Source: JBFMHD01 sp040752395 [NCBI: Candidatus Hydrogenedentota bacterium] (GTDB taxonomy: Bacteria; JBFMHD01). Taken from it: DNA of 12,373 bases. Within the stretch, counting starts at the first letter, position 1. Each line of letters starts with the position of its first letter. The position numbers and the translations under genes are program-made. Positions 2,791 through 6,369 of this stretch are shown in pieces. The stretch spans positions 1 through 12,373 of the forward strand of contig JBFMHD010000071.1 of the NCBI GenBank assembly GCA_040752395.1, in the 5' to 3' direction. A model generated the notes under the pieces. The model was not told where the DNA came from. It did not search any database and saw nothing but the letters and a program-made list of their open reading frames with translations.

Positions 2791-2879
2791 GTCTAACACA
2801 GCATAAAAGGTTTGTGCCTTACAGCACTCACCCAAATTTTTGCTTCGCAAAAACTTCTTTTATGCTGAGAATGTTAGGC
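2791..2879 (+). repeat. attC-like integron recombination site, copy 1
   Basis: It starts with GTCTAAC (RYYYAAC, 2791-2797) and ends with GTTAGGC (GTTRRRY, 2873-2879). Inside, CAGCATAAAAG pairs with CTTTTATGCTG, leaving unpaired AGAA on the right arm. Two smaller hairpins lie in the centre (GTGC/GCAC and TTTTTGC/GCAAAAA). The length of 89 bp is in the attC range. Cleavage is expected between G2873 and T2874. A copy 84/89 identical lies at 5737-5825. Confidence 0.75.
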
Positions 2880-2905
2880 GACATTTTGCTTGGCGGATTT
2901 GCAGA

Positions 2906-2911
2906 TATAAT
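2906..2911 (+). promoter_or_regulatory. Candidate -10 element of the cassette's own promoter
   Basis: A perfect TATAAT lies 49 bases before the original restriction gene start (2960). The -35 at the right distance is poor (ATTTTG or TTTTGC, 2883-2889). An internal promoter would be expected for a two-gene cassette that must express methylase wherever it lands. Confidence 0.35.
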
Positions 2912-2959
2912 CAAAATGAGAAAACATAAATATTATAAAATACAATCAAAGGATTAACT

Positions 2960-3085
2960 ATGTCTACATTTGAACTTGGTTCGGCAACAGCTAAAGGAGG
3001 CTTTGCTAACGAAAAGGCTATTTGTGGCAAGTTTAACAATTGGGAAACCGATGATGAGTCGCCGCTCTGGCTTAAAATTATGTGA
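2960..3085 (+). pseudogene. N-terminal fragment of the type II restriction endonuclease, cut by in-frame TGA
   Basis: ATG 2960 has a ribosome site AAAGGA at 2948-2953, six bases away. The 41 residues begin MSTFELGSATAKGGFANE, a conserved-looking opening I associate with a family of type II restriction enzymes. They run to WLKIM and stop at TGA (3083-3085). The next codons in the same frame, with no shift, read YNTSQIDSVRAIHIPTR and lead straight into the ORF starting at ATG 3137. One point mutation (for example GGA to TGA, giving IMGY) would explain this. The full gene 2960-3793 would encode about 277 residues. Confidence 0.7.
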
Positions 3086-3136
3086 TACAACACCAGCCAG
3101 ATTGATTCTGTAAGGGCAATTCATATTCCAACGAGA

Positions 3137-3793
3137 ATGAAAAGGACAGATATAGAACGATTAGGATTGAAAGAAACTTATGAAGAATTGATGAAATTCA
3201 AAAAGGCAGATGCCCAATTGAGAATTGTGATTACTATTGGTAAGATAGTAAAGATTGAAAATCTATCATTGAAGAAAGCAAACTCAGACGCAGATTATAA
3301 TCAGATAGATAAAAGATGGGTAGAAACATATCAGGAAATATGGAAATTTTCCAATGATGTAGCCTTTGGACTTAAACTTTTTACAGGAGAAGTCAATCTT
3401 GTTTCCCACCCTGAGATAGTCAGAAATAAAACATTGCGAGACAAAAGAAGGATGTTTCTTGATGAGCTTCCAACAGATTTAAAGAATAAAATTATGAACT
3501 TCTTTGCTGAAAATAAAATCCTTGTGGTTACAGACATCCTAAAGGGTAGAGGAGGTTTATCAGCTAACTGGATGTTAGTAACGAGGTACAACAGAGAAGA
3601 CGACACCACCACTTGGATTCTAAAGGATATTAACACAGTAATGAATTTCTTTGGTTCCGGCAATGTAAGAATGTCCCCGAGAGGAAGTTTATACATTGGA
3701 AGGATTACTATGCAAAGGAAAGGCGGTACTCCAGATCCAACAAAATTACAATTCAAAATAAAACCGTGTGAATTATTTAAAGTGGGAGAATAA
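3137..3793 (+). CDS. Type II restriction endonuclease, C-terminal 218 residues after a premature stop
   Basis: Probable DNA endonuclease partner of the methyltransferase that starts 2 bases after its stop. A possible PD-(D/E)xK-like core is D25 in KKADAQLRI followed by SLK at 44-46; numbering is from ATG 3137. The stretch NQIDKRWVETYQEIW, RRMFLDELP, ILVVTDILKGRGG, then SPRGSLYIGRITMQRKGG and LQFKIKP looks like the conserved body of an uncharacterised type II restriction family. I recognise the pattern but cannot name the prototype or the recognition site. ATG 3137 has no ribosome site and lies inside the ancestral frame (59 codons downstream of 2960), so this product exists only through restart or readthrough and lacks the N-terminus. 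Activity is doubtful. The alternative that 3137 is the true start is weakened by the conserved sequence upstream. Confidence 0.7.
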   Translation: MKRTDIERLGLKETYEELMKFKKADAQLRIVITIGKIVKIENLSLKKANSDADYNQIDKRWVETYQEIWKFSNDVAFGLKLFTGEVNLVSHPEIVRNKTLRDKRRMFLDELPTDLKNKIMNFFAENKILVVTDILKGRGGLSANWMLVTRYNREDDTTTWILKDINTVMNFFGSGNVRMSPRGSLYIGRITMQRKGGTPDPTKLQFKIKPCELFKVGE

Positions 3794-3795
3794 AC

Positions 3796-5685
3796 ATGTT
3801 CTTCTTGGCAAAAGTAAAATTTGACCTAAGAGACCCGGATGAACTTTATTTTGCTCAAAGGGAAATAGATAGTTTATTGAAGATAAAGACAGAGTTTGTT
3901 AAAACAATCGCCTCTCTGATTAAAAAGGAACCTTTTAACTTGCTTGATGACGAGGTTGTCCACTTGATTACTCGGTTAGTTTATATGGGTGAAGGGCAAG
4001 GATATTTAGCAGAGATACCGTTTAGAGAGATAATAAGTATAGTAAAAAAGGCAACCTTCTTCAGAGAAATTTATGGAATTTTTGAAGCAGAAAATAATCC
4101 AGAGAGACTAAAGGAGTTACTAAATAAGGTAGGGATAACAATTAGCAGTGAACAATTAGAGAATGAAAAAATAGATCCAAATCCTTATACTCAAATTTTC
4201 TTAAAGAACTTAAACGATACGAGTAAATTAGTAGCAATTAGATTTTTGCCTTTCCAAACACTTTTTGAATATGCAACTGAGGTAAAGAAACTTCCGGCAG
4301 CAGTATTCCGTCCTAGAAATAGTGAGAACTGGGCAGAGTACTTTAAGGAGAAGGAAAATGGAATAGAAAAAGGTATAAAAGAATTACTTGAACACATGAA
4401 AACAGGTTATTATCGTTCACCCCACTTTGGACTTGGGAAAAATCATGTAGGTGACTTTGTAGATTGGGCATCTACTGACCTGAGAAAACCCTTTCTTCAT
4501 TACCTCCACAAATACAAAGGAAAGGGAGATCCAAGAATATCACGTGCCTTGATAAACTTATTAGATGTGAAAGAAGGTGATACAATCCTTGACCCTTTTG
4601 TAGGTTCAGGAGCATTTATTGCTGATGCTCCCTCCATGGGATTAAATGCTATCGGTATAGAGATTTTGAATATAGGAAAGATGATTACTGAAGTTAAATG
4701 TAATCTAGGAATTAATATCACAGATTTACGAAACACTATAATCAAATTATTTGAATCTATGGATGGTATACTCTTCAAACAAGATATAAGGAATGAGTTA
4801 ACAGAAATAAAGGAAAAAATTAAAAAGAATACTGGCAATAATAGAACTTATGAGAATATCAGCCCACACTTGGCAAAAATTATATTTCTAAAGAAAGGCA
4901 TAGATAATATAGGTAATGAAGAAACAAGGACATTTCTTTTAGTTCTCTTAAGCCAAGAGATTGTAGAATATTCTGAAAAAAAGAGAGGATGGGATATAAT
5001 TAACTCTTTCAAATCTTATATTGAAGATAGATTCTTAACTTTATATGCTACTAAGAAACTTGCAGAGATACTCAATGTAAATCTCAACAAAGGTAAGGTT
5101 ACAATAATTAAAGGAGATTCCACTAATATGTCAATGATCAAAGATAATTCTATTGATGGAATGCTTACTTCTCCCCCTTATTTTGACGCTTTAGACTATA
5201 TCGGAAATAACAAGGTTTCAATTTTAATTTTGGGTTTAGATGAAGACCTTACTTGGGAATCTACAAAGCAATTTTATGAAGTAAAACATCGAGACGAAAA
5301 AAAGTATGAAACATTACCGCTGTTTGTCAGTGATAGATATTTTTCTATTCAATTACCTCCATCAAGTTTAAAACTTATAAAGCTACTGCAGGAATCCCGT
5401 AGAGCATATAAATCAAAAGTTGTCGAAAATTACCTAAAGATGATGAAACTTTCATTCGAGGAGTGTTATCGTGTTTTACGAAACAAAAAGTATTATTTAA
5501 TGGTGGTAAGCAAAAATCATAGATGGATAATAAATGGACAGGAGCAAACGATAGAAACGTCTTCTATACTAGCAGATTTAGGAAGATCTGTTGGTTTTAA
5601 AGTAAGCGATGTCATTGAGCACGGATTATCCAAAGCTGATAAAGGTAAGATCGGAGTAGAAGACATACTGGTTTTCCAAAAATGA
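3796..5685 (+). CDS. Site-specific DNA amino-methyltransferase of the restriction-modification cassette
   Basis: An S-adenosylmethionine-dependent DNA methylase of 629 residues. A motif X-like segment (LHKYKGKGDPRI, around residue 235-250) leads into motif I DPFVGSGAF at 266-274, which binds the cofactor. Catalytic motif IV TSPPY is at 458-462; SPPY points to N4-cytosine or N6-adenine rather than C5 methylation. The order X-I-IV leaves about 185 residues between I and IV and about 165 after IV for target recognition. The first 200 residues have no domain I recognise. A ribosome site GGGAG (3784-3788) lies seven bases before ATG 3796, and the start is 2 bases after the endonuclease stop, so the two are co-transcribed. 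The frame is open and appears functional; it would protect host DNA or act as an orphan methylase if the endonuclease is dead. It ends in TGA. Confidence 0.88.
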   Translation: MFFLAKVKFDLRDPDELYFAQREIDSLLKIKTEFVKTIASLIKKEPFNLLDDEVVHLITRLVYMGEGQGYLAEIPFREIISIVKKATFFREIYGIFEAENNPERLKELLNKVGITISSEQLENEKIDPNPYTQIFLKNLNDTSKLVAIRFLPFQTLFEYATEVKKLPAAVFRPRNSENWAEYFKEKENGIEKGIKELLEHMKTGYYRSPHFGLGKNHVGDFVDWASTDLRKPFLHYLHKYKGKGDPRISRALINLLDVKEGDTILDPFVGSGAFIADAPSMGLNAIGIEILNIGKMITEVKCNLGINITDLRNTIIKLFESMDGILFKQDIRNELTEIKEKIKKNTGNNRTYENISPHLAKIIFLKKGIDNIGNEETRTFLLVLLSQEIVEYSEKKRGWDIINSFKSYIEDRFLTLYATKKLAEILNVNLNKGKVTIIKGDSTNMSMIKDNSIDGMLTSPPYFDALDYIGNNKVSILILGLDEDLTWESTKQFYEVKHRDEKKYETLPLFVSDRYFSIQLPPSSLKLIKLLQESRRAYKSKVVENYLKMMKLSFEECYRVLRNKKYYLMVVSKNHRWIINGQEQTIETSSILADLGRSVGFKVSDVIEHGLSKADKGKIGVEDILVFQK

Positions 5686-5736
5686 GTAAAGTCAACTCAA
5701 ATAGATATGAAAGAATGATTGCCAAGCAAAACGGTC

Positions 5737-5825
5737 GTCTAACACAGCATAAAAGGTTCGTGCCTTACGGCACTCACCCAAATTTTTGCTTCGCAAAAAC
5801 TTCTTTTATGCTGGGAACGTTAAGC
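5737..5825 (+). repeat. attC-like integron recombination site, copy 2
   Basis: Same 89-bp layout as copy 1, with five substitutions: GTCTAAC at 5737-5743, GTTAAGC at 5819-5825, and the CAGCATAAAAG/CTTTTATGCTG stem unchanged. In an integron this is the attC belonging to the restriction-modification cassette, with its last six bases (TTAAGC) contributed by the next cassette. Cleavage is expected between G5819 and T5820. Confidence 0.75.
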
Positions 5826-5867
5826 AAAATGCCAAGCCCAACAAAAAATTATGTAAGGTGAAAGAAG

Positions 5868-6209
5868 ATGGCTACCCGGACAACATTAGAGCGACTGGAA
5901 CAACAAGAAACTCGGCTGCCGATACGTGATCAACTAAAGCTGATAGCTCGCATCCCCGAGCGGTTGAGTATTATGCCGCGGGACATAGAGAAACAACATG
6001 CTGGAGATACTGATAAACTTTTAACATTGTGCGATGCGACAGCGGATATGTGGGAAGGCAAGTTTGATGCGGCTCAAGAGATTCGCCAAATGCGTCAAGG
6101 ACGAGAGGAGCAAATATGGCCGAGAATAAACACAATTTTTCTATCAGCTCCCCCAATTATCTCACCTGCGAATTGTAAAAGCATTGGAAAAGGCAGGTTT
6201 TACAATTAG
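5868..6209 (+). CDS. Probable antitoxin gene upstream of a HicA-type toxin
   Basis: A 113-residue soluble, charged protein beginning MATRTTLERLEQQE. Ribosome site AAGGTG (5855-5860) lies seven bases before ATG. I do not recognise a named domain. The DAAQEIRQMRQGREEQI segment (residues about 65-82) resembles the C-terminal tail of small antitoxin-like proteins found next to HicA genes; this is from memory, not a search. The natural end is probably near IWP (about 6120), because the last 26 or so residues are read out of frame through the toxin gene's 5' end. It starts 42 bases after attC copy 2, so it may be the first gene of the next cassette. Role as antitoxin is inferred from position. Confidence 0.6.
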   Translation: MATRTTLERLEQQETRLPIRDQLKLIARIPERLSIMPRDIEKQHAGDTDKLLTLCDATADMWEGKFDAAQEIRQMRQGREEQIWPRINTIFLSAPPIISPANCKSIGKGRFYN

Positions 6210-6369
6210 AAGACAGGGAAAACACATAACGATGTCTGATGGGATATCCATAATTCAGGTTCCGCGAAATAATCCTGTTAAAAAGTACACATTAAAGGAA
6301 ATAATTGAAGACGCAGGACTAACAATAGAACAATTTAAAAACATGATATGGTTATTGATAAATGGTTAA
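6184..6369 (+). CDS. hicA: HicA-family mRNA interferase toxin, N-terminus split by a frameshift
   Basis: HicA toxins are small double-stranded-RNA-binding-fold ribonucleases that cleave mRNA. This frame gives EKAGFTIRRQGKHITMSDG with the RQGKH motif carrying the catalytic histidine, then VPRNNPVKKYTLKEIIEDAGLTIEQF, a close match to the family ending. The TTG at 6184 is unlikely to be the ancestral start. In the same frame the codons from about 6146 read LPQLSHLRIVKAL, the missing first helix, but an upstream TAA leaves them without a start. A strong ribosome site AGGAG (6106-6110) sits five bases before ATG 6116 in another frame, which stops at 6176. A one-base loss between 6119 and 6155, for example in the T5 or C5 run, would explain the break. 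Either the toxin is inactivated, or this is slippage or an assembly error. Confidence 0.7.
   Translation: MEKAGFTIRRQGKHITMSDGISIIQVPRNNPVKKYTLKEIIEDAGLTIEQFKNMIWLLING

Follow-up and report, generated by a model that had tools for sequence, protein, structure and literature searches.

A cluster of attC sites lacking an integrase (CALIN) is defined by two or more attC, spaced by less than 4 kb, where IntI is absent. The I2 helix of the integrase IntI is considered to have co-evolved with the extrahelical bases of attC into a pair that enables recombination of the folded site. In the available excerpts of two papers this co-evolution is called a chicken-and-egg paradox (Escudero 2016, PMC4792948) and its intermediates are said to be lacking (eLife 2020, PMC7790495), and in both the acquisition of I2 is the step that made integrons. 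Excerpts of two further papers report integrons in 75 archaeal metagenome-assembled genomes (MAGs), with six IntIs, a majority of CALINs, and attCs that are nearly the same in archaea and bacteria (Ghaly 2022, PMC9668308), and an IntI insert that is not fully conserved within the integron-like subgroup of tyrosine recombinases (Smyshlyaev 2021, PMC8138268). Here we analysed a stretch of 12,373 nucleotides from a Candidatus Hydrogenedentota bacterium (contig JBFMHD010000071.1, assembly GCA_040752395.1; the window), in which two attC-like hairpin sites bracket a presumed gene cassette. We consider it likely that the window holds a section of a cassette array from an integron-like system, and that the recombinases of this system do not have the I2 insert. 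Searches of the open-licence literature (preprints excluded) yielded no description of a cassette array that depends on an I2-less recombinase.

The window contains a 96-nt repeat at 2789-2884 and 5735-5830 (93% identical, spaced 2,946 nt). Its 89-nt cores, both on the + strand, are identical at 84 of 89 positions and differ at the other five. Both cores begin with GTCTAAC and end with GTTAGGC in copy 1 or GTTAAGC in copy 2, and the RYYYAAC and GTTRRRY boxes of attC are present in the hairpin of both copies. When each strand of both copies was folded, the z-scores ranged from -4.6 to -6.6, and none of 200 shuffles was as good in any of the four folds. The stem of both copies is a perfect 11 bp. 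The two near-identical 89-bp hairpins with attC-type ends that a first-pass annotation had described are thus borne out. The predicted sites and the cassette between them are as follows.

2791-2879, + strand: recombination-site hairpin copy 1 (predicted), with R'' GTCTAAC at 2791-2797 and R' GTTAGGC at 2873-2879.
2799-2809 / 2857-2867, + strand: stem of copy 1 in the fold, with arm 1 at 2814-2827 and arm 2 at 2834-2856.
5737-5825, + strand: recombination-site hairpin copy 2 (predicted), with R'' at 5737-5743, the stem at 5745-5755 / 5803-5813 and R' GTTAAGC at 5819-5825.
2874-5819, + strand: cassette, 2,946 bp between the presumed G/TT crossover points of both sites.
2873-2894, + strand: cassette start arm, about 22 nt complementary to its own cassette end.
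5721-5743, + strand: cassette end arm, partner of 2873-2894.

The G/TT crossover position is presumed from the integron analogy plus the complementarity of the cassette ends. The two cassette arms can pair along some 22 nt, interrupted by one mismatch and one mismatch/indel, and 1 of 20,000 shuffles was as good; the same score is reached by 31 of 24,700 23-mers of the window, overlapping ones counted separately. The best partner of the cassette start in the whole downstream window is the left arm of copy 2 (12/15, next best 11). The two sites are 2.85 kb apart, and no IntI was found in the 12.4 kb. A third site was not found in the window, where the other matches to the site model R1 described below are weak (the best, at 2520-2603, has 16.4 bits and E 0.02); a search of the window for an attI-like motif was negative. 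A search of Rfam with the window gave nothing at the gathering threshold and below it only chance-like matches, and the repeat had no match in a plasmid collection. The EF-G encoded in the window reaches at most 45% identity, along nearly its whole length, with those of 46 genomes, and stays under 60% in the plasmid collection.

Sites of the same kind are widespread in bacterial and archaeal genomes. Patterns derived from the hairpin matched one or two viral contigs per scan. When GTDB species genomes were scanned once with a pattern for the second arm, 98 matches turned up in 97 stretches, spread over many phyla of bacteria and archaea, and 67 of the 98 had TAAC or CAAC on the left plus GTT on the right in a simple letter test. 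At E<0.001 the covariance model R1, built from 40 sites (L001 was left out of its alignment), recognises 93 of these 97 loci; the four that fail (L016, L022, L074, and L085) look like chance. R1 gives 115.3 bits to copy 1 and 120.2 bits to copy 2 of the window, both of which are members of its training set. A search of 100 loci yielded 165 matches, the best 150 of which form alignment A7; by label, the 96 loci in A7 are 48 bacterial, 42 archaeal and 6 neither. R1 sites were detected in all 46 genomes chosen for a site, in 11 of 17 genomes from the phylum of G041, and in 9 of 119 from the class of G039. The record of archaeal locus L047 is titled complete genome, and most other loci are titled MAG. 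A PIN-domain cassette is common to a Nitrospinae MAG and a Methanophagales MAG (L146:1932-2612 / L148:6143-6646, 83-84% DNA identity). The phage contig L001 (3888-3999) shares its hairpin core with window copy 2 but has changed ends and, on the right, a spacer of greater length, and the viral contig L003 has the conserved arm with another stem near the contig end. The idea of a palindromic element inside genes, which came from L001 and L003, was dropped after the flanks of 100 matches had been seen.

The layout of the site is a basal stem that contains the R boxes, an 11-bp stem, and a three-way junction with two arms (CCAAAT ... ACTTC). Among the 150 aligned sites, 94.1% of cells are paired and 702 are double-changed, compared with 157 in shuffles (0/500 as high); when one side was slid as a control, pairing fell to 29-49%. 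The 41 sites near recombinases gave the same 94.1% pairing, with 276 double-changed cells vs 84. Both alignments were fitted to R1 and hence lean towards the modelled structure. One-sided changes such as G-T pairs are rare, and this rarity appears to fit folded DNA better than RNA. In 113 of the 138 sites with standard ends, the stem has at least 9 pairs and no bulge (at most one mismatch), and no conserved extrahelical base was found in the stem among these 138. The left spacer of these sites is most often 1 nt (101 sites) and the right one 5 nt (88 sites). The sites of the relatives often keep just the AAC and GTTR cores of the R boxes.

The opening bases of a cassette in an integron array derive from its own attC. 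They are therefore expected to pair with the far end of that same cassette, whereas the other half of the hairpin in which they now lie should not be their partner. We examined adjacent sites within 6 kb, 15 weak matches having been added by hand so that neighbours were not skipped. Among 83 distinct pairs, 82 were on the same strand and 1 on opposite strands. The circle test used 65 of the 82 same-strand pairs (17 were without AAC/GTT where expected). Over the nine positions after GTTA, the cassette start matched its own far end at 5.68 of 9 positions, compared with 3.63 for the same hairpin and 3.56 for shuffled partners (0/5,000 shuffles as high). The own far end was the better partner in 49 cases and the worse in 6, with 10 ties (p 1.8e-9). 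The complementarity reaches as far as roughly position 18, and position 11 shows an A/G difference that is almost invariant (55 pairs). For 73 of the 77 intervals used (out of 82), the longest open reading frame (ORF) runs along the array strand. Cassettes have a median length of 1,180 bp and a range of 383-5,934 bp, the longest possibly with an undetected internal site. These comparisons of sequence strongly support the view that the own-end complementarity is the footprint of circular cassettes with one complete site. The integron-cassette architecture proposed in the first-pass annotation thus gains strong support in the window and across the site family, and its term attC-like is probably right in function. 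Its remark on unusual cassette size does not hold, since 2.9 kb is not exceptional in a family with this median and several kb at the top. Its integrase-less attC cluster fits the window and is probably wrong for the family, as the arrays of the relatives follow a recombinase.

We then turned to those recombinases. The cut-off of the IntI model TIGR02249 is passed in 4 of the 46 site-bearing genomes. Many of the others encode a tyrosine recombinase that matches TIGR02249 in two pieces, with the IntI insert missing. Four such proteins tested scored 200-230 bits with TIGR02249 (cut-off 265, missed) and 221-247 bits with NF040815, the XerA / 'integron integrase' model (cut-off 220, passed). IntI-based searches would probably miss these recombinases, because their TIGR02249 scores are below cut-off and the insert is missing. 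One branch has a HARP-like N-terminal domain (HARP-N), for which model A5 was made, and the 31 regions with an A5 match at E<1e-6 are taken here as HARP regions (four matches above 1e-6 were left out). A site is present in 17 of these 31, compared with 0 of 20 XerC/D-type regions (p 3e-5) and 0 of 7 IntI regions; the controls came from the same genomes. Eight of the 17 site-holding regions are on contigs that had been fetched by the site pattern, and with such contigs excluded a site remains in 9 of 23 HARP regions vs 0 of 20 (p 0.0017). At least 1 kb of contig lies behind the gene in 20 of the 31 regions, the other 11 being near a contig end, and in 16 of these 20 the nearest site is downstream on the same strand. 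Another 21 fetched regions, with other recombinase pieces or types, stand outside all these counts; eight of them hold a site (L148, L149, L150, L160, L173, L176, L178, and L180).

In the 119 genomes from the class of G039, A5 at E 0.001 or better found four matches. Two of them, in G039 (which had been chosen for a site) and G159, have E<1e-8, and in both genomes the sites share contig and strand with the match; the remaining two, long frames of 914 and 935 amino acids, come from genomes without sites. Classical integrons have the recombinase gene divergent from the array, and this arrangement was seen for shorter recombinases of 236-296 amino acids without HARP or IntI insert, which lie upstream of opposite-strand sites in nine loci from DPANN, Patescibacteria and a bacterium (L005, L025, L026, L030, L038, L042, L073, L076, and L079; an uncontrolled count). 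In their arrays, most sites are built on a different stem (e.g., AAGGATTTAGAG). A quick tree (SH-aLRT only) split the array recombinases and IntI from the XerC/D controls with support 99, and in it IntI plus L189 form one group. The AlphaFold2 model of the L050 protein (mean pLDDT 79.5, pTM 0.54) has the integron integrase 2a3v as its nearest PDB fold, followed by XerA. Canonical IntI and HARP-N recombinases occur together in the single genomes G017, G031, and G032; in G032 (L162) two copies of a differently built repeat with a canonical-attC look adjoin IntI. Clean canonical attC sites on the IntI contigs were too few for an attC model.

Some of these recombinase genes are followed by attI-like sequences. 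A partner search upstream of the first site found a start about 15 nt behind the recombinase stop in L055 and about 90-130 nt behind the gene in L050, L146, L143, and L153. Of 33 starts listed, 12 have AAC[AGT]A just before GTT; the count is uncontrolled, and some starts are behind another site and are not attI. These 12 suggest an attI-like consensus of about TTCGKATATRAACRA directly before GTTA. The strict motif AAC[AGT]AGTT[AG] is present within 260 nt in 5 of 17 HARP-type genes vs 0 of 21 controls (one gene with little sequence behind it was left out). Within the divergent branch, a strong partner (14/15) lies 103 nt from the recombinase start in L038, and L026, L030, and L073 have candidates 31-35 nt away that match at 8-10 of 15 positions.

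The system that we favour, in which every cassette consists of a gene with its hairpin site, would work as follows. The recombinase would cut at G/TT, excise cassettes as circles and insert them at attI. In recognition of the site, folded as a hairpin, the three-way junction and the asymmetric spacer (usually 1 vs 5 nt) would take the place of I2 and extrahelical bases. In one branch, the N-terminal HARP-like domain may perform the recognition of the folded site. The array in the window would then be cut off from its recombinase, or be a decayed remnant. The system is set apart from the canonical integron because two defining features of the latter, the I2-bearing integrase and the extrahelical bases, were not found in it.

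One competing account is that these are ordinary integron cassettes, i.e., a CALIN with unusual canonical attC whose movement depends on an IntI, either of the same cell or in trans, and that the neighbouring recombinases are unrelated. The window R boxes do fit RYYYAAC/GTTRRRY, and IntI is above the model cut-off in the 4 of 46 genomes mentioned. In the excerpts available, archaeal MAGs have mostly CALINs, 23 attCs are 95-100% identical to bacterial ones, and of nine archaeal attCs eight were recombined by IntI1 about as often as controls (PMC9668308). We nevertheless judge this account unlikely. Sites were found in none of the 7 IntI regions as against 17 of 31 HARP regions, and the stem is bulge-free in most sites (113/138). 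Three genomes carry both systems, and the IntI of G032 adjoins a repeat that is built differently. Some non-IntI recombinases also have attI-like sequences behind them.

Use of the site as double-stranded DNA, like XerCD at dif, would make the hairpin a symmetry for two-sided binding and not a folded substrate. The four HARP-type proteins tested pass the XerA model and have no I2, and the attI-like site resembles a simple inverted core site; set against this, the long stem and both junction arms covary at many positions, far beyond a site of the size of dif. Moreover, the A/G difference at tail position 11, nearly fixed, is a mismatch when one strand folds but a G-T pair when the other does, from which it seems that one strand is preferred. 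On balance such double-strand use is quite improbable. A mobile palindromic or miniature inverted-repeat transposable element (MITE)-like element that flanks genes by chance could explain the hairpin core with changed ends in phage contig L001 and the conserved arm with another stem in viral L003, but strand-uniform arrays, ORFs on the array strand, and complementarity to the own cassette end are not expected of it, and the sites are linked to a recombinase. We give it hardly any credence.

The I2-less integron-like system remains our preferred explanation, and several observations weigh against it. No recombinase was found among the ten window ORFs searched. Pfam HARP is seen at the N-terminus in 2 of the 4 HARP-type proteins and below threshold (22.5 and 18.5 vs 25), and most site-bearing genomes show no HARP-N enzyme, because A5 at E 0.001 is found in 23 of 62 genomes and R1 sites in 56 of the same 62. 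Genomes with sites and without HARP-N could be incomplete, belong to another branch, or have sites that are moved in trans. The HARP-like domain is not specific either, since a member of the IntI clade has it (L189, described below). Among the HARP regions with 1 kb behind the gene, L187, L189, and L190 had no site, and in L188 the nearest site is upstream on the opposite strand, though a same-strand downstream site exists. L042 has a site on both sides of the recombinase, and in L178 the sites are on the other strand from the recombinase piece. Several recombinases have stops or a missing N-terminus, and the strict attI motif is behind just 5 of the 17 genes. Mis-binning may also inflate the taxonomic spread, because most of the genomes are MAGs. 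In the L189 protein itself (L189:7762-8550; G031:C136), a truncated integrase of the true IntI clade is fused at its N-terminus to a HARP-like domain. The domain may serve folded-site recombination in both branches.

Compared with integrons and CALINs, the present system has the same RYYYAAC...GTTRRRY ends, head-to-tail cassettes on one strand, circle footprint, and attI-like site beside some recombinase genes, and the window is a two-site cluster without IntI. It differs in recombinases without the IntI insert, a stem without conserved extrahelical bases, a conserved three-way junction, cassette-end complementarity to about 18 nt and, in the HARP branch, a recombinase gene on the array strand. 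With the archaeal integrons of Ghaly 2022 (PMC9668308), as excerpted, it shares archaeal and bacterial hosts, mostly CALINs, and near-identical cross-domain sites. The IntIs there carry the specific domain, and those excerpts describe no recombinase without it. Some of the Ghaly 2022 sites may belong to the present family. The array recombinases share their fold with XerA/XerC/XerD and pass the NF040815 cut-off, but the XerC/D controls form another clade, and the array recombinases adjoin cassettes and in one branch have the extra N-terminal domain. The integron-like subgroup of Smyshlyaev 2021 (PMC8138268) is not linked to sites or arrays in the excerpts available.

Whether these loci form a separate and widespread integron lineage of uncultivated bacteria and archaea, which never had I2 or lost it, has junction-recognised sites and in one branch a HARP-like domain, and exchanges cassettes across domains, is in our estimate an evenly balanced question. 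A natural hairpin-site cassette system without I2 or extrahelical bases would make the question of I2/attC co-evolution testable. If the lineage is real, it would either supply the intermediate that is missing from before I2 or show that recombination of folded DNA was solved independently. Many 'integrase-less' MAG clusters would then gain a recombinase, and archaea and bacteria an added route of gene exchange (compare the PIN-domain cassette common to two MAGs).

The genes in the window cassette and the start of what may be a second one are listed here.

2960-3793, + strand: R.HinP1I-family restriction endonuclease (REase) frame (Pfam E 2e-56), with an in-frame stop at 3083-3085 and the open part at 3137-3793.
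3796-5685, + strand: N6/N4 amino-methyltransferase of 629 amino acids, from the Pfam family search.
5820-6369, + strand: putative second cassette, start only, with a 113-amino-acid ORF at 5868-6209 and a HicA-like frame at 6184-6369.

The restriction-modification pair of the first-pass annotation stands as far as the two families and their shared + strand are concerned; the REase frame is interrupted by the stop, and the 218-amino-acid REase ORF is for this reason the C-terminal part only. M.HinP1I is a cytosine-5 enzyme, and the pairing of a HinP1I-type REase with an amino-methyltransferase is therefore unusual. An end site for the presumed second cassette (from 5820) was not found, and the family search with the 113-amino-acid ORF found none. 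The HicA-like frame has a TTG start only, is open further upstream without a clear start, and is possibly decayed. A cargo search of 20 of 62 cassettes assigned a Pfam family at 1e-5 in 18, including NUDIX, PIN, an ion channel, flavin mononucleotide (FMN) reductase, GmrSD, SNF2 helicase and two DNA methyltransferases. The methyltransferase in the L080 cassette is a distant relative of that in the window (22.8% identity over 359 amino acids, E 5e-13). Methyltransferases and other defence-like cargo are thus recurrent among the cassettes. Outside the cassettes, the genes of the window look ordinarily chromosomal and encode a GH94 phosphorylase, EF-G, an RRM protein and a glycosyltransferase.

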